From Chrysoperla carnea (Eukaryota > Arthropoda > Insecta > Neuroptera > Chrysopidae), in the NCBI RefSeq assembly GCF_905475395.1, contig NC_058337.1, positions 71,444,368-71,508,367 on the forward strand: 64,000 bases of DNA, read 5' to 3'. The number at the start of each line of letters is the position of its first letter. Position 1 is the stretch's first letter. Below the pieces are notes generated by a model. It was not told the DNA's origin, did no database searches, and worked only from the letters and a program-made list of their open reading frames with translations. Below are positions 13,760 through 31,675 of the stretch, piece by piece. Position numbers and translations under genes: made by a program.

Positions 13760-16138
13760 TTAATCTTCATGTTTCTGTTTTTTATTTTTCTTCTTTTTCT
13801 TTTTCGGAGGTTCCTCTGTTACACCATTTTCTTCAGTTACACCATTTTGATCACCATTAAGTGTATCATCACCATTTTGTTCAATTGATTCATCTAAGAC
13901 TTCAGCTTTACGTTTTTTGTTCTTTTTCTTCTTCTTTTTATCTGGTGATGATGCTATTTCATTCTGAATCGCCGTTGAAGCTTCTTCTAATGCTTCTTTC
14001 ATAACATCAATATTCTTTTTAGGTATGTCACCAGTTTCATAAAATTTCAAACGATCTTCAACTTGTTGTCGTAATTTTTCACCAAATATATTTGTTGGAA
14101 TTTCAGCAAAGCAATCTATACGCGAAGCAATTGAACATTTATTTGCTAAATAACGTGAAATACGTCCTTTGTTTTTAGTACCAGCACGTCCGATAAACGT
14201 TGAATGGAACAACAAACCATACTTGGGAGTGTTGCCGCGTGTTTTTAAAGCTCGAAACAATGCCTTTTCAGCACCTAAGATCTGTACAGTCGACGCTGGA
14301 TACTTAGCTAAATTTGTTAATGAACCAGCATGTGATATTAAACGAGCACCAACTTGATCGCCAATTAATGTTGCTAAATTTGGTGCAACCGCTTGCATTT
14401 TTGTACGTAAATATTCAGCTAACTGTTTACGATAATCAGCTAATGCAATTACACGTGAGGCAAACATTTCAATGTTGATTAAGTCTACAACACTTATATC
14501 CATACCCATACTGGATCGGGAAGCATCCAATATGGCTTGAGCTTTGGCACTATCCATAACAATCTCTTCTAAACCTTCCAATGATTCGTCGGTTAAATCT
14601 TTACGATTTTTTATAAATTTAGCTACTTTTGCAAACATATAATTTTCAGGAACAATTTTTACGAGTTCTGGGAAATGATAAGAATACCATTCTCTGCAAT
14701 ATAAAATAAAACAATTTATTATAATTTTTAATAAAATCTATAATATTTTATTTGCTCAAAATATTATGTTGAGTTCATAAAAATTTACTAAACTATCGAA
14801 TTTTGTATGTAAACAAGTAATCTTTTTCTAATTTTAAAGCTCTACACAATAAAATAAAATTATTAATTATTTTATTATTAATTAAATTTTGTAGTTTGGA
14901 GAAAATTATCTAAATTGAATAACACAAACAGGGAAGACAATTTAACTAAAAGCGACAAAATTATTTTTAAATTATAAAATTTGTTTTATGTAAAATTTCG
15001 ATTAATCCTCAATGCGACAATAAATATGTGTTTCGATGACAATTTGCTAGTAGATGCAATAAGTGCAATTTGCACCTGAAAGATGTTACTTGTCGATAAT
15101 TTGGTGAAAATATTAAAGAAAGTAAGTTTATTCAACTTCAAAAATAATATTTGCAAAAATATTTGAAATAAACAAAATTAGTACACCTAAAAAGTAAATT
15201 TCTAAACCTAAAAGGAAAAAAATTCATGCACCTATGACATTTTCCAGATGTTTATTAGGTTGTAAAAACTTGGTAAAAAAAAATCGACCTCCCAGGGCCG
15301 TAGCCAGCCCTCATTTGGGGGTTGAGGGGTTTTAATCAGTTTTTTACAAATTACAAAAAACTATGCATCAAATAAAAGTTCAAGCTGAAATAATTGTGCA
15401 CATTTTCGTTTTTTTTCGACTAGCTTCAAAATTGCCCGAGATAGGAAAGTCTAGTTCTACAATACTTAAAATTACAATCGAAATTTGCCTTACCTTATCC
15501 GCATTGAGAAAGTGTTCACGTCCTTATCAAGTTGATCCAACAATGCAATTGATTGGATAATCATATTATCAACCCGATTGACGTTGAACTTAACTTTTGC
15601 ACGAGAATAAGAATGTCCCAGACCAAGTTGAGCAACACCAGAACTTTTTAAACTGAATCCTTTCACCAAATGATGAAAATGAAATCGTACACCACGTATC
15701 ACTTCTGGGACAACACCAACATGGGTACAAGTAATGCCAAGTGCTTCAGTAATGCTAGCACCCAATTTTGGATCCACCACACCCAATGTGATTTTTTCTT
15801 TCTTACTTGACTTAGGTACCGTTAAATCCAAAAAAGTTTGTAAATCATCTGGGACAATACCTTCTGAAATAGCATTGATATTTTCTAATGCAGAAATTGC
15901 TGTTTTAAATGGTGAAAATCCAACTAATTTCACAAGTGAATTAAATCGACTTAAGTCATTTACAGATTGTTCCAATTGTGGTAACAAGATGCTAACTTCT
16001 TCAAATTCGGTGACGCGAAATATAGCATAGCCTGCTGCATGTTCGAATAGAACAAATAGTTTTGACTAAAAATAAAATTGTTTTGATTATTTAATAGATA
16101 ATTCAAAAAATATCTTAAAAATTAAGTAAACTTACCAT
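13760..16138 (-). CDS. NOP56: Nucleolar protein 56, box C/D snoRNP core protein (3 coding exons)
   Basis: NOP56 is a core subunit of box C/D snoRNPs, which guide 2'-O-methylation and processing of pre-rRNA in the nucleolus with fibrillarin, NOP58 and SNU13/15.5K. Coding exons on the minus strand are 16136-16138 (ATG only, then GTAAGT), 15494-16065 and 13760-14693; phases fit and give 502 aa. The N-terminal NOP5NT-type domain starts [13 protein letters not shown]. Then come [20 protein letters not shown] and [18 protein letters not shown], and across the last junction [13 protein letters not shown]. The Nop domain follows with the signature [14 protein letters not shown] (about residues 245-258), [20 protein letters not shown] and [20 protein letters not shown]. 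The tail has Lys-rich stretches (near 445 and at the C-terminus) typical of the family. Length matches the usual 450-600. It is not NOP58, because the snoRNA-binding region and the basic tail fit NOP56. The gene is divergent from TAF1B. Confidence 0.96.
14694..15493 (-). other. NOP56 intron 2, with a hAT-like terminus
   Basis: An 800-bp intron between the CTTAC donor complement at 15489-15493 and the GCAG acceptor at 14694. NOP56 introns host C/D snoRNAs in several animals, so the minus strand was checked for a TGATGA C box followed by CTGA; none was seen. CAGGGCCGTAGCCAGCC at about 15293 resembles the end of the hAT-type element at 40755. Confidence 0.5.
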
Positions 16139-16488
16139 TTTGTCAACGTTTTTTGTTTATAAATTGTTATTTTTTAATTTCTTAATGGTCACATGTGCTT
16201 TAAAATTATTTACAAATATATAGGTTATAAAAAGAACACTTGCACATTTGCGTTGTTGTATGTTGTATGTAAAATTTGTCCACATGCGCGTTAGAACACG
16301 CGCTCTAACTGTTTTGTAAATATGGAACTAAACTTTGGTTGTTTCCTTTTTTTAAATAACCCAGTTTAATACAGAGCCGCAGTCATTGAGGGTTTATATT
16401 TATAAAATTAATATTAAATTTATGTCGGGAAATAAAAATATGTATCTACATTAGAAAATCATTTGTATCTAAAAGTGTTTATTATTAA

Positions 16489-17371: not shown

Positions 17372-17549
17372 ACGATAATAGTGCTATCTATATTTCATCA
17401 ACCCGAACATTTTAAAAAGACGTCTCAATTTTCAAAAATAAATGTTTTCAAACATGGTTTTCAAAGAGTATGGACATGTGTGGTTATGTTATTATTATGG
17501 TATATATTGTTTTTCGTAAGAATGGTGCATGTATCTAAGTTGTATTGAA

Positions 17550-20500
17550 ATGAATGTAGTTTGTCGTGTCTGTGGAGGAACAGATTATCATCTGGAAGGT
17601 GGATTATATTATTGTGATGAATGTCAGACACAAACTCAAGAATTACGTGAACAAATTTACGATGATGGTGACCGTACTTACTTAAATACAACTAAAATTA
17701 CTATTCGTAAAAATGATAATGATAAAAAGGGAAAATCTAAAACTTGGACTACTTGGGAGGGCTATAATATCATTTTAAAAGGGCTAGTGGATGAGTTAAT
17801 CAATTTAGGGGCTCCATCAGAATTAAAGTTAACAGCATTTCAACTATGGGCTGCTTATTTAAGTGCTATTAAAGTGGCATTTTTTGCCCAAAAAGAAGCT
17901 GATCTACCAAGATTGTCAGCAGCATTTCGACCACAGTAAGTTCGAAAATTATGTTAAAAACAGCATGTGATTAAACACATAAGCTAAATTACTATTCACA
18001 TGCACAAAGTTATCATTAATGTAAGCCTACGAGTGTAGCTAGTAATCAATCAGCCGTAGCGTCATTTACTATTTTTTCGAAAAGATATGCGGACACGATC
18101 GTGTTTTTAGTGTGATTCTCACGTTAAGACAATTTGGAGTAGATAATTACCGTGAGTAGAATATTTTCTACCCTAAAACAGAATAAGTTTTTTGAGGAAA
18201 AATTAATAGTTTTTCTCTCTGATTGCGTTCATTCACTGATCCACGGGTTGGCCATACCTTTAAGGGGACCGAGTTAGCACGGGTCTGCAAGTTTTTTGGC
18301 TTTTTGGTTAATCTTGTGATGACGCCCATGCACTGATCCTCAGAAAATCAGAGAAAAGTTAAGGTATACCAAAGTTAAAAAAAACTTAGATAATATTCTG
18401 TTCAATTTAATTATATATTCCAAATTATGTTAACGTGAGACTCACGATGAACACACGGTAGTGCATCTACTCGAAATTATGTTAACGTGAGGCCCACGGT
18501 AAACACGATTGTGTAAACACAAATTCGTGTAAATTATCTAAGATATAAACGTACTAAATATTTCCGTTCTAGAACTCTTGAAATAGAACCTTGTAGCTTT
18601 ATTACTCTTGTTTTAGTTTTTTCATCAATTCCTCAAATGTGTTCGCATTTCGGTAAATAGTTATATTTCAATAACAGCTTGAATAATTATCATAGTTCTC
18701 AGAAATTGTAGTTTGTGAGTGGAATATATTTTCTCCAAATATACAGACAAGCATGTCTTTAGTGAAACTATTATTATATGTTACGAAAAATGTTTCAATT
18801 TTTTTAAAAATATTTTCCATGTTTTTGTCAGATAAATTTTGTTGAAGCTCTGGATAACAAAAATATATTTGACTTGGATTCAAAGTTACAAATTCAAGAA
18901 AAAAAGCTTATTTATAGAACTGAAGAAAATGAATAATATGATTTTTTTTAATTTTAGTGATGCCCAAGCTATTTATAATTTTGGTCACCCCAAGCTAAAA
19001 AAATCCAAATCCAAATCCAAATCGTCAGTAATTTCTACAGACCCAGATTCAACTTCGTTACACGAAAAAATATCTCTTAGCCGTCGACGAGGAATTACTA
19101 AGGTAAATTTTTCAAGTGATTCTCCTTTTATACCCCCTGCCACAAAACTAGCTATTCTGTCTAAACACACTTATTTAAGAGCAAAGTTAAATCAGCGATT
19201 ATATTAGGAAGAAATTTGTACAATTTTTGAGAGTCTATTACTCAATAATAACTATCATTTTAATTCATAACTAACCGAATGGATTTTCAAGGAAAACTCT
19301 GAGTCAGTTCGCTCATTTTCATGTTAAGATTGTGCACTCCAAAAAAAGCTCGCAAATAAAATAAAATTGAATTGTTTTGTTGTGGTAAAAATTCTTAAAT
19401 TTACTTTGAGATATAGCGAGTGTATCTAAAAATTGTCTACATTGGTGAAGTTTCAGCGAGAAAATCAATGCGATTCATAATTATTCGTTTATGAGATAGA
19501 TTTGAGACAGAAGAAACTATCCTAAATGTCCCCAAATATCATTCTAAAATACCACGATAGTTCATTAGCTTCACAAGAGAAAGAGAAGTTATTGACAAGG
19601 CAAGTCACTAATTCGGCTGGGGTATGTCAAATGCAATGTCCATAGCCCAAGATCAGCTACACTCGAAGAATTGAAAATCAATTATCAATTTCAATGTTAC
19701 CATTGAAAATCAATGTGTCCAAATACCAATTTTCAAGAATAAGGAAGTTTTGGATTTCATCGCTCATATTATGAGCTTTTACATTCAATTTAAATTATAT
19801 GTTTTTAACTTTTAAGAATTAGGACAATGATAGAAACATAAAAGACCATAAATTATATTGCCATCTCAAAAACGGTTAATTTAAGGGGAAAAAAAGTATA
19901 AGAATATTTGTTCTTAATTTTAAAATACATTTTTAATGTAGTTTGTCTTGCAAATTTAAGTATTTCAACTCATGCAAACACAAAAATTTTTTTTTTTCTA
20001 AATTCCTTATGTTTTTCGAAGTTATGTCACTTTTAAGGTGAAAATAAAATTTCAAGCTAACTCATTTTAGGCAAGCCTTAAGTTTGAAATCCTGCGCTCG
20101 ATTTGTAGTATGACTTATCGCGGATGACAGCTGTCTAACTATTGCGATTTATGAGATACAGGCAGACTGCTGTATCGATAATAAGGTTCCGTTGGTTATT
20201 CTTCGGGTACGGAACTCTAAAAATTATCAGTAGATTGAAATTAAAGAATATTGTACTAGTAAATTTAATCCATTCCTCTCACTATAAACTTTGCCACTAA
20301 CACTACATTTCAACCGAATAATAAGTAAGACTTGTTTGAAGTGAAATCATCAAGAAATCATATTTATGGCATGTAGTCAAAAATTAATTAATTTGTTTTT
20401 ATAGAGAGCTTTAATTCGAGCTGATTATGAATCGTCAAAACCAAGTGAAGATTTGGATAGTATGACTGAATACTCAGCGACATCTAAATCTGTGTCATCA

Positions 20501-23500
20501 AAGAGTTCTACAGCTTCCATAAAATTGAACTTTAATAAAAAAGCACGTCAACTAAAATTAAAGAAACTTTCACGCCGACATTTAAAAAAACATACTTACG
20601 ACGATTTGCCGTGCCATAAATTTACAACTTCTGAAGTATCTAGCAGTTATCTACATAGCCCGTATCATTTATCCATAACAAAGCTATACGGAATTTTGTA
20701 TTTAGCTTTGTTGATTTGTAAATCAGATATTTATATTTCGGATTTACTTCGTTATATCCAAGAGGGACATTTGAGCTATGACGATTATAAACATTTATTT
20801 CCCGAAGAGATGGCTATGGATGAAAAATACCAAAAATTATTTGAAATAAATCGTAAATTATTTACAAATTCATCGTTAAGATCATTAGTCGCAAAAATTG
20901 CTCAACTAATTGGCGTAAAATATATTCCATGCCCTGATATTGAAAAATTATGTCTACGATATGTTACGGAATTGCAGTTGCCAGGTAAAGAATTTAGTCG
21001 TAATTTGCTTATAGTTTATTTCTTTTGTAAATATGGACATCCACTCAGTTAAAATTTTTTTTGTATTATTTTAAAATATTCAAATTTTGTTTTTTTTGCA
21101 TCGTGTTTGGTGCCAAGCAAAATTTGTTTTGATTTTTCGTCCATGGGCTTAAAAACAGGTTTTCTAACCTACAAAATTCTGGAGCCAGATTCTTTAATTA
21201 AAATTTCGAATTTTTTTTTTTCTATGCGGCCTTTGATCTCTGAAAGAATGGCTATTACATGTAGAAATTTACGTAATTAACTACGATGAATGATGAAAAG
21301 CAAAAAATATTCCCAAAAAACTAAGCAGATACAATTTGAATTTTTTTTTCAATTTCCTATGCTATCTTTGATTTCTGAGATAACGGCTATTGTTTATAAA
21401 ATTAACGTAGTTAATTTTAACTCTATGAATTGCATTAAAAATAACAAAATTTTTCATCTTAATAATTTATCATAAATTGACTTATAAGGGGCAATAAATA
21501 TGCTCCTTTAATTAAATACAAGGACTATTCGGAAAGGGAAGATGGCCAAGCCGATCTCTTAAAGATCACTCAAAAAAAAATTTAAAAGGCTTTTAAGAAT
21601 GTATTGAATTAAAAAAATAACTTAAAACGTTTGTAATTTTCACAATATTTATTAAGTTGTGGCAGATTTTCCAATACGGTAAAAAAGACTTTTTTAATCA
21701 ATACTGAGCGTACAAAATATTTTTAATTCGAAAAAAGAAAGAAAGTAATAAAATAATTATAGAGGATTGATTGAAGTTGCCTAAACCCATTTTCCGTTCT
21801 CTATACGATCTTTAGTTCACCAGCTATCGATGATAAAAAGTGACTTTTTCTTCAATAGCTTTTTTCTTAGATATCAAATGTCGTATAGAAACAAAAAAAA
21901 TCAAATTGGAGGTAATGAATCTCTGTTTAAGTGACTCCAGCGTTGAGTAGACTAGAAAATTTTTTAGAGCTCTGTACCTAAAGACAACCAAAGAAATCCT
22001 GTTACTAAGACTCCACTGTTCGGCCGTCTGTCAGTGGGCTGTATCTCATAAACCTAAACAGTTGAAATTTTAACAGAATGTGTATTACTATTGCCAACAG
22101 CAACCATGCAAATTTTAAAAAAATTTAAAAAATCAAATTCAGTTTATAGTGGCAGCCATTTTCATATTCAATGAAAATGGCCGCCATGTTATATCTTGTA
22201 CCATGGAGGTTAGAGAGAAGGAGAACGATTGCTACGCGCTAAAGCATTAGCACGCCTGTCCCTGAAAATTCGTCGGTAAGTAGTATCTGCGAAGTTAGCT
22301 GTTTATGAGTATAAGCAGATGAAATTACTTGCATAATGTACAAATTTAACGACAGCTGCTTTTATTTTATTTTGTCCGTATTTCTGGGACACTATTTCCT
22401 ACAGCGATCGTTCTCCATCTTTCTAACCTCCATGTCTTGTACGATGATAAAGATCCTTTCATGTGCGAGCCCGATTCGCACCTGACTGGTTCTATTTTAA
22501 GCACATAATAATGAGTGCCGGAACTATGATTATATCAGGACGTTAAGTTCATTATTTTGAATAAAAAATTTAACTTTTTTATTTTTAGTTGATATTATGC
22601 ATATAATATTACATTTATTAAAATTGGATCCACCAAATTTACGATTCAATCGAAAACGACAATCAATTCCAAATTATGAAGGCCGTGCGATGGGTTACAT
22701 TTTATTCTCATTAAAATTATTGTTCGTACTTGATGATTATACTGAACACAATATATCAAAGTTATCAAAGCAGTTAACTAAGGAAATTAATGATGAAATA
22801 TGCCATACACAATTTTTTAATTGGGATAAATGGGTAGAATATATTGAATGTCGTAAAATATTTATTGCCGATTATCATTATCCTACGCATATGAAATATT
22901 TTCCTTATTCTGAAAACACTGATAATATTCATTTATTTGTTGATTACTGGGAAAAACAAAAAAATAAAAATGATTTATATCAAGAAAATATTTACAACAC
23001 AAAATTATACACGTACAGAAAAATTTTTGAAAATTTAAATTCAAAATTATCAACAGAAAGCAAAAAAATTATTGAATTTTCCCCAAATTCTTCAACACCA
23101 TTAAATTCAGCAATGAATAAATTAAATGAAACATTGGATCAAATTCCATCAATTCTTTTACAAAAATTTTCGGAGTTTCAGATTGATTTCATTACAAATC
23201 CTTCAAAATTTATTGAAGATTATAATTTGAATGCTAAAATTGTTGATAATAAACTTTCCGAATTATATTTACCACTTCCAGTATTTAGTTCTTCAGCATA
23301 TAAATTCGATGAAAAAACTATTCCTTGTAAAATAGTGCCCAAATCACAAATAATACCCGAAGGAAAAAAATTGAATAAGGAAAAAAGAAAAAATTTTTAT
23401 AAAAATGACGAAGAAGAGTGTGATAAAGGTTTAATATCATTGTATGAACCGTATACTAAATATTGGATTGAAGCTAGCCTGCTTGCACATGAAAATTTAA

Positions 23501-23736
23501 AGGGTCATTTTGAGTATGTGGAAAAACATTGTTTACCGAAAAGTTTTCAGTGGTTGTTAAAAGAATGTGCTCAAACTATTAATTCAACTACGAGAGAGTT
23601 ATACCGAGAATTAGTAATTATTGAAATACATTTAGGAATACTTTTGCACAAAGATATTAAAAATAAATATTGTGAACAAAACAAAAATAATCGATACTTT
23701 AATGCATTGTTAAGAAAAGTTCAAAACGAATGGTAA
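17550..23736 (+). CDS. TAF1B: TAF1B, RNA polymerase I SL1/TIF-IB subunit B (4 coding exons)
   Basis: TAF1B (Rrn7/TFIIB-like) is the SL1 subunit that bridges Pol I and the rDNA promoter in the nucleolus. Coding exons are 17550-17935, 18958-19102, 20405-20984 and 22589-23736; phases fit and give 752 aa. An N-terminal zinc ribbon has Cys at residues 5, 8, 22 and 25 (CRVCGG...YYCDEC). It is followed by the characteristic TTWEGYNIILKGLVDELI and KLTAFQLWAAYLSAIKVAFF (about residues 70-116). Exon 3 has a basic Ser/Lys linker and then the cyclin-like region (ITKLYGILYLALLICKSDI). The exon 3-4 join yields LPVDIMHIILHLLKL, which fits the family better than reading on past the CAG|GTAAAG donor. GYILFSLKLLFVLDD follows. 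An in-frame ATG at 17529 would add seven residues; 17550 was chosen because the zinc ribbon then starts at once. The C-terminal part is Asn/Lys-rich. Poly(A) signals repeat near 23865-23885. Confidence 0.9.
18093..18514. repeat. Inverted-repeat element in TAF1B intron 1
   Basis: ACACGATCGTG and TTCTCACGTTAAGACAATTT at the left are mirrored by AAATTATGTTAACGTGAG and ACACGATTGTGT at the right. A partial direct duplicate of the right arm (ATGTTAACGTGAGACTCACG) sits just inside at about 18425. Non-coding; no clear target duplication. Confidence 0.5.
19103..20404 (+). other. TAF1B intron 2, with a repeat fragment
   Basis: No coding exon was needed between the AAG|GTAAAT donor at 19102 and the TATAG acceptor at 20404. 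At about 20090-20220 lies a minus-oriented fragment of a common insect repeat that ends in TTCGGGTACGGAACTCTAAA. A related + oriented copy is in intron 3 near 21965. Confidence 0.5.
21965..22190 (+). repeat. Insect dispersed repeat fragment in TAF1B intron 3
   Basis: Reads GAGCTCTGTACCTAAAGAC, then CGGCCGTCTGTCAGTGG and CTGTATCTCATAAACC. This is the pattern of the widespread insect repeat that begins with a GGTTCCGTAC-like end and a CCGTCTGTC block. It is inverted relative to the intron-2 fragment at 20090-20220. No ends were defined. Confidence 0.45.
22202..22434. mobile_element. 233-bp non-autonomous element with 8-bp target duplication
   Basis: The terminal inverted repeats are CATGGAGGTTAGA and GAAGGAGAACGATTGCT on the left, against their complements at 22404-22434. 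They are flanked by a perfect 8-bp direct repeat TCTTGTAC at 22194-22201 and 22435-22442. An 8-bp duplication is the hAT hallmark. The interior is non-coding. It sits in TAF1B intron 3 and should be spliced out. Confidence 0.8.
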
Positions 23737-25936: not shown

Positions 25937-28900
25937 ATGGTTGACTTATGTGAATTGCATGCATGGATCGATACACATTCATTTTCACGACCAAAACGTA
26001 ATTTAAATCGTGATTTTGCTGATGGAGGTAAATTTCTCATACGAGTTAAATTTGAAAACATTACAAATAGCTGACGAGGTTATCGTATGGATTTTATAAG
26101 AATTGTTAATGCCACGATTTTTGAATAAAAAAATATTGAACATATTAGACCAAATCAAAATGGGGTAAATTTGTGGCAAAATTAGTGATCATCTGTACTC
26201 AGGATTTATTTGGTATATATTTTAAGGACATGCCATGGAAAGCGTTTGAAGGCTGGATTACAATTTTTTACATTTACGCATACTTATTTTGTACTGAAAG
26301 TGAAATTTGCGGCAAGATCGGATGAAGAGATGAGCGTCTACCATGTGAACCCTTAAAGTTTCAGTAAAAGCAACAAATCTTGTTAACATGACTTAAATAA
26401 GTCTATAACTTTTATCTTTTTATTCATATTTGGTGTAGATATTTAGGTAAAATTAGCGTATATAGAATATACAATTTTAAATTGAGCTCCTTTATCTTTC
26501 GGGCAGAACGTCAAAACTTAACTTAGTTAAAAACTTTACCAAATATGTTTATCGTTGTCAAACAACGTTGTTTTCTTAAGAATTTCCAGGACACACCTTT
26601 GAAACAGATTATTTAAATTTTTATCAGGATTGTCTTCAGGGAGTGAAGACTTTATGTACGCTAGTATAAATTTACCCTTTTTTGGTGCGGCTTCTTTGGT
26701 TCATATAATAAAGCTACACGATCAGTTGGATTAAAGCGCTTCTCAATACTTAGTATGTACTATAAAAGTTCCTGTAATATTCCAGCCCATTTAGAGTGCT
26801 TTTCAATAATGTTTATGCAAATCCTTTAACAACACAAATGAATATTCCTATGGTCGTATCATATTGCTTAATTGACACTAAATTCATACGGTGTTCTCTT
26901 AGGTACAAAATTTGTAAAACCAACATTTGATCAAATATATTTATAGTCCATTGAAATGTTACAATTTTAGGGCCGAACTGAACATTTTTTGGGAGGACGC
27001 GATTTTATTTGTGGGACATGTAGGGGAGGTCAATACAACCTTAACCCCAAGTTCCTGGGGTTGGCGCCCTTGTCCCCCGCCCGCCATCTTGAAAAAAGGG
27101 GTGGAAACATATTTTGCTGTATCTCGTAAAATATTGATTTCTCAAAAAATTTGCAAAGACATAATTTGTATGTGACTTTTTGCGATAAACTTAAAATTTA
27201 AAAAGTTATGAGCAAAAAAGTAACAAAATCAAAAATTTCTTTTTTTGCTTAATAACTTTTTTTCTTGCCATTTTATCATAAATTTAGGTGAGGGCAATAT
27301 TACAGAGAATACGTTTATGAACATTTTCCCGCAAATTTTATTAATTTTTGTTAATTTTTAACGTAGTTACAGCGCTCCAATATCTCCGACTTAATCATAT
27401 TATCAATCAGTAATTAAAATAGAATAGCTAGCTATCCCATTCTACTATTCTTCGATGGTCCAGGTTGTCGTTCAGATTCTCCAAGTTGTGGCTTAGATTC
27501 TCCAGGCTGTGGCTCAGATTGTAATTCAACATCGAATGTGAAGGTTTGAGGAATGACAGGAGTTAAAGTTGGAGTCATCGTTGGTAATTCTTCTTCAAAT
27601 TCATTTTCTTCCATGATTGGACCTGGTGATACACTCGGAGACTGTGGAAACGGGCTACATCCTGTGTTGGCGGAAGCGATGATAAACTGAATGAAACTTT
27701 TGTTACTGTTTTGGAGAATCGTTTGTATCACAACTATATGTAGCACAACTAAAATAATAGCATGAGGAAGAAGAAACAGCTTATTAAATATGTTATTAAA
27801 AAACGAGAGTATGGTAAACATGTTGTTTTGGTCGAGTTATCATGCGCATTGATAAACTCGGTCAACTTTGGAGCGCTGTAACTACGTTAAAAATTAACAA
27901 AAATTAATAAAATTTGCGGAAAAATGTTCATAAACGTATTCTCTATAATATTGCTCTCACCTAAATTTATGATAAAATGACAAGAAAAAAAGTTATTAAG
28001 CAAAAAAAGAAATTTTTGATTTTGTTACTTTTTTGCTCATAACTTTTTTAATTTTAAGTTTATCGCAAAAAGTCACATACACAAAATTTGTAGCCACGAC
28101 AATTTGCTACAAATTATGTCTTTGCAAATTTTTTGAGAAATCAATATTTTACGAGATACAGCAAAATATGTTTCCACCCCTTTTTTCAAGGTGGCGGGCG
28201 GGGGACAAGGGCGCCAACCCCAGAAACATGGGGTTAAGGTTGTATTGACCTCCCCTACATGTCCCACAAATAAAATCGCGTCCTCCCAAAAATGTTCAGT
28301 CAATGTAACATTTCAATGGACTATTAGTTTTATTAGCTGAATTATTAAAGTATCATTATCCAAATTTGGTTGAATTACATAATTACTCTCCACAAAATTC
28401 GTTACAACGAAAAATTGATAATTGGGAAACATTAAATCGTAAAGTATTAAAAAAATTAAAATTGGGTATTACAAAAGCAATGATGGAACAAATTGCAACA
28501 GCACATCCTGGTGCTATTGAAAAAGTGCTAGCACGCCTTAAAACGAAAATTGAACAAGAAAATATGTGTAAACGTGATAAAGATGATGATTCGGAGCATT
28601 CAGATATATCCGAAGTAACAGGTAAACATATTTCATAGAGAATATTATAAGGTAGAAATAACAAAGTAGAGGAAACGGTTAGTTACGAAATAAAACTCTT
28701 GATTTGCGCCTGTTGGCGAAAGCAGCGGAGTTATGTTATACTTATAAGCGTGATTGACAGGTAATTAATTTTTTATAATCCTTAGATGAACGAATTATGA
28801 ATTAGTCTGCATAATTAACCAGATAGCATTTAAAATCTTAAATATCGATATTTTCACAAATTATTCTTTAAATTGTAAGGAAATGGTTTCTTAAACATAA

Positions 28901-31675
28901 ATTGATTATATTTGAACAAAAATTATTGAATTAAAAATTTATATATTATATAAAAGGCATGGTCTCATTAGGAATATCATAAAATATGAGAATAAAAGTC
29001 ACTTCAGAGTTATCGTGGAATACTGAATTATTCGTGAGGGTCGTATATACAATTGTACAACACCCTGAATTACGTGTTTTGTACCGTACGTATTAATAGG
29101 GGAGCCCAAGAGGGGATTTGTGCAATAACTCGAGCGCGTCAAATTAATATATGCGCTTGGCCCCGGCCCTTCATGAGCTTCAACACCGCTCATCTCTCAA
29201 ACGAAGCAACTTTTTACTAAGGTTAGTTTAGCTAAATAGACTTAATTTAAGGTGTATTATACGTAGTTGAGCAATGTCCACATATATAGAAACAAATGGA
29301 ACATGATTCTCGAATAGTATCTCAATTGCAGAGTTATTATATTACTAATAGACATTTACGCGAATCATTTAAATACTTGTTTTAAGAGTATTGTTTGTGT
29401 TTAGGTATAATGTTTTAACTATAGATATAACGTTTGCATAACTTTGACAGCAATTAAAGATGAGGCCATCATTAATAGCATATTATACACTGGGAACAAA
29501 AGTAAATAATGTCTCAGATCTCATATTCATTGTCATCCGAGGCGAAGCCGGGGTGACATACATGATATCTGAGATATTATTTACATACTCCCGTAATGTG
29601 TATACTAATTTTCTCCTCAACGGAGGCGGAAAGTGCCAACTTTGTTTTGCAAGGCGGACAGAAAGTTGACACTTTCTGCGGAGATGAGAAAAAATATTTT
29701 GCAACTTTTACTTCAATACATTCATATAATACTATGTATTTTTTTTATGTGATTTTTTATGAAATCAAATTTTATAGGAGCATCAATTCGTATCCCAATT
29801 CGTGTTAAAAATGATAATAATGATGAAATGGTTGTAGAACAAAAAATGTCTGTTGATATTATTGCTAGAAAGTTTGAAGAATTGGAAGAGAAAAATGAGG
29901 CTGTTAAAATATTGAATCAGAAGGTTTCCTATGTTCACTCTATTAATAAGAAAAATCTATTACTTTTAAAATTCTACTTTGTTACTCAAAGACTATACAA
30001 TTTTTAACTTAGCGAGACTAAAAAATAAGAAAATAAATTGTAGTTTAAAAAAAAAAAAAAAAAACGGAGATACATGATCAAGGAGAAATTTTGACATACT
30101 TTAAATTGGTATTCCAAACTCTTCTGTTCGAAGTTAAATTCCAATTTTCGACCTTCTCAAACGACCCGATCATGCCGAAAAATAAGAAAAACCTCGAAAA
30201 TTTTTACCTTCTGTTTTTTTCCTATTTTGACCCAGAAGTACTGATTTTACTCAAAAATTTCGGTATTTATTTTTAAACAAGTGAAAACAAACAATTGACT
30301 GAGTTAATTGTTGAAATACCATGCATAATCAGTGTTGATTTCTTTATCACATTACACATACAAACATGTGACACATACATAACTGATAATCAAGTATAGT
30401 ACATATTATAAAATTTCCGCCTAATTGGCGCCCTCACGGGTAAACAGTGATGTTTACGAAAAAATGTTTCAAACAAAAGTTGTTTGATTTTTTGATAAGG
30501 AACATTTTTTACATTTAAACTTTAGTTCTATCTCTAACGGTTTACAAGATGGGTACTATGGCCCCAAGCCCCAATTGACCTATGATGCTCATTTAACCTC
30601 ACTTTTTACGTCCTGAGTACGCTGTCAAAATTTCAGCTCGATATCTTTTTTCGTTTTTGAGTTATCGTGTCCACAGACGGACGGACGGACAACCGGAAAT
30701 GGACTAATTAGGTGATTTTATGAACACCTATGACAAAATTTTTTTCCTAGCATCATTATTTTTAAGCGTTACAAACTTGGGACTAAACTTAATATACTAT
30801 GTATATTTCATATATACATGGTATAAAAAGGTTAAATTTTCAACAATTTGACATAAAATCGGTTATATATTATTATTGATTATAGGACTAATAGTATCGG
30901 AGATATAGCTTTTCAAAGTTTGTCTATTATTTCATGTTTCAAAATTTTAAGCAAAAATCAATTTTGTAAATCGTTATAAAAAATATTCCTTATAAAAAAA
31001 TAAAAAACTTTTGTTTGAAACATTTTTTCGTAAATATCTCTGTTTACCTGAATAGGCGAAACTTTTGGTTCCCATTTTCCCCAAAACTATAAAAGACAGC
31101 GAGTTGGAAATTTGCAGGTAGCTGCAAATAGTAGTCTTGTGAAATATTTTAGAAAAACGAAATAAAACTTCTAGAAAATACTTTCGAAAATTTTTAACGC
31201 CTTCGCGGGTAAACAGTGATGTTTACGAAAAAATGTTTAAAACAAAAGTTGTTTTTTTTTTTTTATAAGGAACATTTTTTATATTTAAACTTTTGTTCTA
31301 TCTGTAACTGTTTAAAGCTGTATCTCCGAAACTATTGGTCCTATTTAATCTCAAATTATTTAAATTTTAATTTTCTTTAAAAATATATACCACAATTTTT
31401 GAGGAAAAACCAGGGTCATAATCATTAAAAACTGAAATAAGATCAAAATTTTCGATATTTTTCTTATTTTTCGGCATGATCCGTCTATTAATGTTTTTTG
31501 GTTGATCGCTTCTTAAATTTATTTATAGGTAGAGCATTTAGATTGTTTAATTCGTTTAAAAGATCAACGTATCGAAGATTTAACAAGGCAGCTGCAAAAG
31601 TATCATAGCTTCGGACAAATAATTAAAAATATTTCATCAAAATCTAAACAAAATTTAATCGAGGAATGTGATTGA
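25937..31675 (+). CDS. SPEF1: SPEF1/CLAMP, calponin-homology microtubule protein (4 exons)
   Basis: SPEF1 (sperm flagellar protein 1, CLAMP) bundles and stabilises microtubules in axonemes and cell cortex. The exons are 25937-26027, 28328-28621, 29778-29923 and 31529-31675; phases fit and give 225 aa. The start has a good context (AAAATGG). The N-terminal CH-like domain reads HAWIDTHSFSRPKRNLNRDF, then across the first junction DGVLLAELLKYHYPNLVELHNYSP and NWETLNRKVLKKL (about residues 8-75), which are the most typical SPEF1 stretches. A charged linker follows, then a C-terminal coiled coil (ARKFEELEEKNEAVKILNQK and LDCLIRLKDQRIEDLTRQL). Length is near the family's 210-240. Oddities: the exon-2 acceptor touches a mobile element, and the exon-3 donor AAG|GTTTCC is weak although the joined frame (NQKVEHL) is sensible. 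AATAAA lies near 31761. Confidence 0.92.
26944..28323. mobile_element. 1.38-kb long-terminal-inverted-repeat element in SPEF1 intron 1
   Basis: The left arm (26944-27380) and right arm (27868-28323) are close inverted copies of about 440-455 bp. Both ends read TAGTCCATTGAAATGTTACA toward the interior. Shared internal blocks include TTTGTGGGACATGTAGGGGA and GTTACAGCGCTCCAA. The right arm has a 30-bp extra segment (near 28090-28118). The flanks are TTA at 26941-26943 and TTA at 28324-28326. The duplication is therefore TTA, or TA if the first two bases of the arm are counted as target; the superfamily (PIF/Harbinger-like or Tc1/mariner-like) stays open. The 487-bp centre holds a 129-codon open frame. 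The right end lies 4 bp from SPEF1 exon 2. Confidence 0.85.
27432..27821 (-). CDS. 129-aa open frame inside the long-inverted-repeat element, unrecognised
   Basis: This intact open frame begins with ATG at 27819-27821 and fills most of the unique centre of the element. The N-terminal third is strongly hydrophobic (PHAIILVVLHIVVIQTIL), like a membrane anchor or signal anchor. The rest is acidic and Pro/Thr/Ser-rich, with two near-identical units (QPGESKPQLGES) before the end PGPSKNSRMG. No transposase motif is visible and no family is recognised. It could be a captured or element-specific gene, or simply an open stretch without function; there is no direct evidence of expression. Confidence 0.35.
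   Translation of the reverse strand: MFTILSFFNNIFNKLFLLPHAIILVVLHIVVIQTILQNSNKSFIQFIIASANTGCSPFPQSPSVSPGPIMEENEFEEELPTMTPTLTPVIPQTFTFDVELQSEPQPGESKPQLGESERQPGPSKNSRMG
28622..29501 (+). other. SPEF1 intron 2, 5' part
   Basis: Between donor ACAG|GTAAAC and the hairpin pair. A G+C-richer patch at about 29090-29210 (AGGGGAGCCCAAGAGGGG, GCTTGGCCCCGGCCCTTCAT) stands out from the A+T-rich background and may be part of a mobile element, but no ends were found. Confidence 0.35.
29502..29584. repeat. Pre-miRNA-sized hairpin 1 in SPEF1 intron 2
   Basis: GTAAATAATGTCTCAGAT at the left pairs with ATCTGAGATATTATTTAC at the right, then TCATATTCATTGTCA with TGACATACATGA, around a loop containing GAGGCGAAGCCG. 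Length is 83 nt with few mismatches. It may be an intronic miRNA-like hairpin or part of a MITE. Confidence 0.55.
29609..29697. repeat. Hairpin 2 in SPEF1 intron 2
   Basis: TTTTCTCCTCAACGGAGGCGG and AAAGTGCCAACTTTG pair with AAAGTTGACACTTTCTG and CGGAGATGAGAAAA. It lies 25 nt after hairpin 1 and ends about 80 bp before exon 3. Confidence 0.5.
30276..30830 (+). repeat. Repeat family R, copy B, in SPEF1 intron 3
   Basis: Runs from AAACAAGTGAAAACAAAC, through AGTTAATTGTTGAAATACCA, GTAAACAGTGATGTTTACGA, CCACAGACGGACGGACGGAC and ATGGACTAATTAGGTGATTT, to ATTTCATATATACATGGTAT. It is the best-preserved copy for the 3' half. Further partial pieces, one inverted (about 30960-31190) and one direct (about 31195-31330), follow in the same intron. 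Confidence 0.7.

Follow-up and report, generated by a model that had tools for sequence, protein, structure and literature searches.

A long-armed, non-autonomous DNA transposon abuts the splice acceptor of SPEF1 intron 1 in Chrysoperla carnea

In a 64,000-nucleotide stretch of the Chrysoperla carnea genome (here called the window), we found a 1380-bp long-inverted-repeat transposon at the 3' end of the first intron of SPEF1, no more than 4 bp from exon 2. Its 3-bp target duplication, TTA, supplies the A of the acceptor AG. Both points had been made in a first-pass annotation of this DNA, and the element boundaries and the sequence bear them out. We lean toward an account in which a non-autonomous element with arms of ~440 bp, probably of the AcademX type, entered the last bases of the intron between the branch/pyrimidine region and the acceptor's G, the TTA duplication kept a TTAG by exon 2, and splicing would continue by one or both of two routes. 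On balance we judge this account as a whole, by either route, somewhat better than an even bet, the splicing outcome being inferred from sequence.

SPEF1 lies on the plus strand, and its four exons join into a single intact open frame of 225 codons. The product matched PDB entry 2ee7 (sperm flagellar protein 1) at 1e-33, with a CH domain recognized by Pfam CH_2 at 1.7e-34. A protein search of the 559-Mb genome returned two matches, both exons of this same gene, and no second SPEF1 match. The placement of exons 3 and 4 leaned also on features of SPEF1. The gene model is as follows:

25937-26027, plus strand: SPEF1 exon 1, coding part (MVDLCELH...FADG and the first base of the V codon), from translation, in-frame joining and Pfam CH_2
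26028-28327, plus strand: SPEF1 intron 1, GTAAAT ... TTAG, from sequence and in-frame joining
28328-28621, plus strand: SPEF1 exon 2, from in-frame joining
29778-29923, plus strand: SPEF1 exon 3, donor GTTTCC, placed by frame
31529-31675, plus strand: SPEF1 exon 4 including the stop, placed by frame

The junction of exons 1 and 2 reads DGVLLAE where 2ee7 has DGVLVAE, and AG 28326-28327 is therefore the acceptor that yields the conserved SPEF1 protein. The acceptor side of the intron thus stands as first annotated; the donor side needed correction: with 26027 as the last base of exon 1 and 26028-26029 as the donor GT, the intron runs from 26028 to 28327. Exon 3 appears to have an unusual donor, AAG followed by GTTTCC (29919-29929). 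Neighboring genes in the window are NOP56 (13760-16140, minus strand; PDB match at 1.6e-113 for its last part) and TAF1B/Rrn7 (17529-23736, plus strand; Zn_ribbon_RRN7 and Rrn7_cyclin_C domains).

The coordinates given earlier for the element, both TTA copies, the acceptor AG and the start of exon 2 were reproduced by direct inspection and repeat search:

26941-26943, no strand: left 3-bp target duplication TTA, from flank comparison
26944-28323, no strand: non-autonomous long-inverted-repeat DNA transposon, 1380 bp, from repeat search and a terminus and target-duplication scan
26944-27380, plus strand: left arm of the element, from repeat search
27381-27867, minus strand: unique center, left over from the C-terminal coding part of a longer transposon and bearing a private deletion of ~150 nt, from copy comparison
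27868-28323, plus strand: right arm of the element, from repeat search
28324-28326, no strand: right target duplication TTA, its A shared with the acceptor AG, from sequence and flank comparison
28326-28327, plus strand: acceptor AG giving DGVLLAE, from the PDB match and in-frame joining

Both ends of the element consist of the 20-bp repeat TAGTCCATTGAAATGTTACA. Repeat search recovered the inverted arms in three paired segments: 26943-26963 with 28304-28324 (100% identity), 26986-27170 with 28108-28292 (98%) and 27167-27380 with 27868-28081 (98%). The arms are ~440 bp long and mismatched at 3.6% of 439 aligned sites, in line with the earlier description of them as nearly identical. Their indels are unequal: the left arm lacks 29 nt, a private deletion of the window copy, and the right arm lacks a GGGCCGA stretch near its end, an absence shared by all 12 same-orientation copies. 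Homogenization of the arms within the window copy was considered and rejected, because each arm is nearer to the arm of another copy (1.8% and 1.3%) than to its partner. The sole listed frame of at least 90 aa inside the copy, 129 aa long, had no Pfam match.

Elsewhere in the genome, the element terminus was matched 102 and 95 times (197 places) at no more than one mismatch, and the reversed pattern 0 and 0 times; the same structure at many places argues against an assembly artefact at SPEF1. Identical 3-bp flanks were found for 37 of the 41 copies with both termini. Twenty-five of 27 came from a first scan of 36 loci (the window and L013-L047), from which nine loci lacking a termini pair under the criterion used were excluded; the other 12 of 14 came from a second scan, whose pairs were chosen among the first 100 of the 197 terminus places as having two listed ends. 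Identical flanks are lacking in four copies: L038, L039, L064 (AAA/AAG) and L079/L080 (AGC/ACC). One of these (L039:670-2528) is flanked by the reverse-complement triplets CTT/AAG rather than by direct repeats, and by eye holds a foreign stretch of ~0.5 kb. Among the 37 exact duplications there are 18 different triplets, with an A+T content of 86% against ~71% for the window. The family thus has no fixed target motif and leans toward A+T, and special targeting would therefore be unnecessary for hitting TTAG at an acceptor. Most first-scan copies are of similar size (17/27 within 1.3-1.6 kb).

Compared with 11 other same-orientation copies, the window copy carries 17 substitutions, 14 of them private, and two private deletion regions, of 29 nt (left arm) and about 150 nt (center). 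Six indel events scored for this copy reduce mainly to these two regions, and the P of 0.05 that six would give was set aside. Five opposite-orientation rows (L015, L016, L021, L022 and L025) were omitted from this comparison, as their ~0.24 divergence reflects orientation; likewise, within-arm divergence is inflated for L027, L034, L038, L039 and other short or interrupted copies, whose arms are shorter than the stretch compared. With so few private changes, the copy is too young for decay of the gene to be expected, and we rejected the intact SPEF1 frame as proof of working splicing. A coarse search for a second acceptor-edge insertion found none; it took in 15 open frames of 75 codons or more lying no further than 400 bases from 26 copies, with Pfam run on 2 of the 15. 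One copy (L037, 1973-2041) begins ~70 nt 3' of what is presumably the donor of an exon for an AMP-binding enzyme, which places the family near a donor elsewhere too, and ~230 nt separate another (L018) from an exon with a match to the insect OS-D family.

To reconstruct the empty site, the element and one TTA were removed. The joined sequence, ...catttgatcaaatatatttag before the junction and TTTTATTAG after it, is acceptor-like, and the insertion therefore fell inside an existing 3' splice site, parting its G from its branch/tract region. With TTA duplicated, exon 2 still has a full TTAG at its edge, and its own sequence is thus unaltered. Four features bear on how this acceptor might be recognized; of these, the competing AG and the second in-frame AG are absent from the first-pass annotation:

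26921-26943, plus strand: region that probably held the original branch point and tract; together with one TTA and the next G it reads ...atatatttag, the empty-site acceptor, from flanks joined by script
26945-26946, plus strand: competing AG of the element terminus (TAGTCC), from in-frame joining; predicted paired, with unpaired probabilities of 0.01 and 0.00
28304-28309, plus strand: TGTAAC, branch-point-like, with A at 28308 (19 nt from the AG end) and paired should the hairpin form; from fold and acceptor comparison
28335-28336, plus strand: second in-frame AG (ttttattag), from in-frame joining and Pfam

The old branch region holds the branch-like motifs CCAAC and TTGAT, with A at 21 and 14 nt from the AG end. 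The first-pass annotation held that the branch point and pyrimidine tract must now come from the element's own arm, and that this arm is weak. Pyrimidine content does not bear out the second part: at positions -20 to -4, both the present acceptor and the empty site have 9/17 pyrimidines, against 8, 12, 10 and 12 of 17 in a small reference set of four introns (SPEF1 introns 2 and 3, NOP56 introns 1 and 2). The mean over all 2574 YAG sites of the window is 8.5, so pyrimidine content hardly discriminates here. T content over the same positions is lower (6/17 at the present acceptor; 8 at the empty site; 7 to 12 among the reference introns). Nor does the arm appear obligatory as the source of these signals, since pairing of the arms would bring the old region 26921-26943 beside the AG.

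The predicted fold of the element is far more stable than expected from its composition, with a minimum free energy of -798 kcal/mol versus a mean of -302.5 (sd 9.5) for 20 dinucleotide shuffles. In a fold of the 2707 nt that run from exon 1 through exon 2, 26946 paired with 28321 at a probability of 0.9999, and the stem was predicted to extend to its ends through 26944-28323 (0.94) and 26943-28324 (0.62). The fold thus agrees with the earlier proposal of a possible long duplex in the intron RNA, terminating next to the acceptor. It also places the old branch region beside the true AG, an arrangement that would restore the original acceptor geometry. In the same fold, the true AG is itself largely paired, with unpaired probabilities of 0.17 at 28326 and 0.31 at 28327; the old tract pairs with 28326-28334 about half of the time (0.46-0.63 unpaired over 26934-26941), and the arm's TGTAAC is buried. 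If the transcript stops at 28323, positions 26923, 26930, 26935 and 26940 of the old branch and tract are mostly paired (unpaired at 0.03-0.10); in seven shorter transcripts, with ends between 27100 and 28290, the competing AG has an open A (0.84-0.93) and a mostly paired G (unpaired at 0.08-0.38). The empty-site AG is itself predicted to be paired, and these accessibility predictions therefore carry little weight.

From these elements we propose that correct splicing would go on at AG 28326-28327 and perhaps partly at AG 28335-28336, which, if used, costs Val-Leu-Leu and lowers the CH_2 score from 118.1 to 103.3 bits. That one or the other of these proper AGs is the main outcome seems likely to us. 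By route (i), the arms would pair, the 1.38-kb insert would be held out as a stem with the competing AG buried inside it, and the old branch would again lie beside the AG. By route (ii), before or without pairing, the element's TGTAAC would serve as a branch point 19 nt upstream. Both routes may operate. An active role of the hairpin in splicing we hold to be doubtful. Unlikely, too, is the stronger proposal that the insertion compensates for itself, its own duplex burying the left AG and returning the old branch to the recreated AG, such that a 1.38-kb insert would be splicing-neutral; in a transposon-rich genome, such a coincidence somewhere would not be surprising.

Route (ii) could also act alone, and the probability we give to this narrower reading overlaps that of the whole account. 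The terminal repeat, read outward as TGTAACATTTCAATGGACTA, would then hold a latent branch point and tract, a 3' splice site would be made wherever G follows a target duplication whose last base is A, and the long duplex would be uninvolved. At SPEF1, the A of GTAAC lies 19 nt before the AG end with no AG between and 9/17 pyrimidines, and the 20-nt terminus is identical at 16 of the 17 right ends listed; GTAAC, however, is one position off CTAAC, T makes up only 6/17, and the predicted full-length fold leaves no part of the site unpaired. We regard this reading as tenable, short of an even chance. Rather less probable is that the insertion is damaging, with the old branch and tract directing splicing to AG 26945-26946 (ttatag), or with exon 2 skipped, and SPEF1 reduced or lost in the sequenced individual; the element may then be a rare allele. 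The competing AG lies 2 nt 3' of the original acceptor AG position and precedes the true one, and its site ends in ATTTATAG, identical to the last eight bases of the SPEF1 intron 3 acceptor. Its use would give DGVH and then a stop, and skipping of exon 2 would keep the frame and remove most of the CH domain. Against such damage, the competing AG is predicted to be buried in the stem, its use would yield an exon of 1675 nt, barring a donor within the element, and SPEF1 is without a second genome match and its frame is otherwise intact.

Two further explanations concern what the element might do rather than how the acceptor survives. The near-perfect intronic duplex of ~440 bp could be diced and silence the transposon family in trans, and the 197 terminus places would offer targets; any transcribed copy would be equivalent, however, with nothing specific to this site, and we consider such a siRNA source improbable. 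Creation of the intron by the element, in the manner of Introners, is very improbable: the target duplication does form part of the splice site, as in the Introners described in PMC9860276, but 916 bp of intron lie 5' of the element. Such a gain requires a new intron in coding sequence; here the joined flanks give an intron end and no continuous exon, and we rejected it.

Longer copies suggest the class of the element. Two of them, L042 (1771 bp) and L043 (2231 bp), retain more coding sequence, and the L043 frame used as a protein query found 136 matching stretches in the genome, 13 of them inside open frames of 1464 to 1551 codons. A relative of ~5.9 kb (L058/L059/L060/L081; G000:C6:21972200-21980500 and C1:128648800-128655260) has a 1551-codon open frame, stop to stop, begins with TAGCCCAGTC, is flanked by target duplications ATT and TAT, and is identical at the two sites compared. 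These identical copies, together with the strong matches in long open frames, suggest recent activity of an AcademX-like transposon. Domain matches to the L043 frame fell below curated cut-offs: Pfam 5_3_exonuc_N at E 0.046 (13.9 bits versus a cut-off of 34.3), Pfam Zn_dep_PLPC at E 0.03 and the NCBIfam 5'-3' exonuclease at E 0.021 (14.1 versus 305). The C-terminal region has an invariant SGC-TT core across three aligned frames and a cysteine-rich tail. The 1480-aa protein of the ~5.9-kb relative matched DUF4674 alone in Pfam (E 0.79), and a PDB sequence search for a nuclease domain with this protein or with a three-row profile gave no match. PIF/Harbinger elements duplicate TWA; we rejected this class, since TTA and TAA each occur only 3 times among the 37 exact duplications, which span 18 different triplets. 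The nuclease of AcademX elements is XPG-like. As described in PMC10045372, AcademX elements combine a nuclease with target duplications of 3 or 4 bp, and duplications of this length flank 37 of the 41 copies and the ~5.9-kb relative. On its 3-bp duplications, and with a C-terminal region in longer copies that is weakly nuclease-like at scores below the cut-offs, the element is probably a non-autonomous AcademX-type transposon.

Should the hairpin rescue the acceptor, its ~440-bp stem would offer a natural test in an animal of the limits to which RNA structure can extend the distance from branch point to AG, and would help explain the survival of some transposons at exon edges. If self-compensation were true, foldback elements with long arms might, as a group, be better suited to such sites than transposons of other kinds. 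If there is no hairpin rescue, the site would show clearly how a target duplication can preserve a splice site, or else how a cilia gene came to have a damaging allele. A related stem precedent is reported for adenovirus E1A (Chebli 1989, cited in PMC7969005).

As a transposon, the element is a further member of an already known kind. It is short and non-coding, with terminal inverted repeats, a target duplication and many similar copies, and in being non-autonomous, with inverted repeats and numerous similar copies, it resembles MITEs and foldback elements without notable difference. With AcademX and Academ elements it shares the 3-bp target duplications; the longer copies and the ~5.9-kb relative encode a weakly nuclease-like C-terminal region, and the length of the relative is near the mean of 5565 bp reported for bivalve Academ elements in PMC10294476. 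Unlike AcademX elements, the window copy is internally deleted, non-coding and long-armed, and its family's nuclease match lies under curated cut-offs. As in Introners and other splice-site-co-opting transposons covered in PMC9860276, the target duplication contributes the acceptor AG; in contrast to them, the window element struck an existing intron and made no new one. According to PMC12350175, a stem within the branch-point-to-AG interval can shorten the distance and hide wrong AGs, with precedents from yeast, and canonical splice-site intervals are depleted of stems, which there show no correlation with the fraction spliced. Unlike the stems described there, the stem at SPEF1 would be a recent transposon duplex of ~440 bp, with a putative use in splicing.
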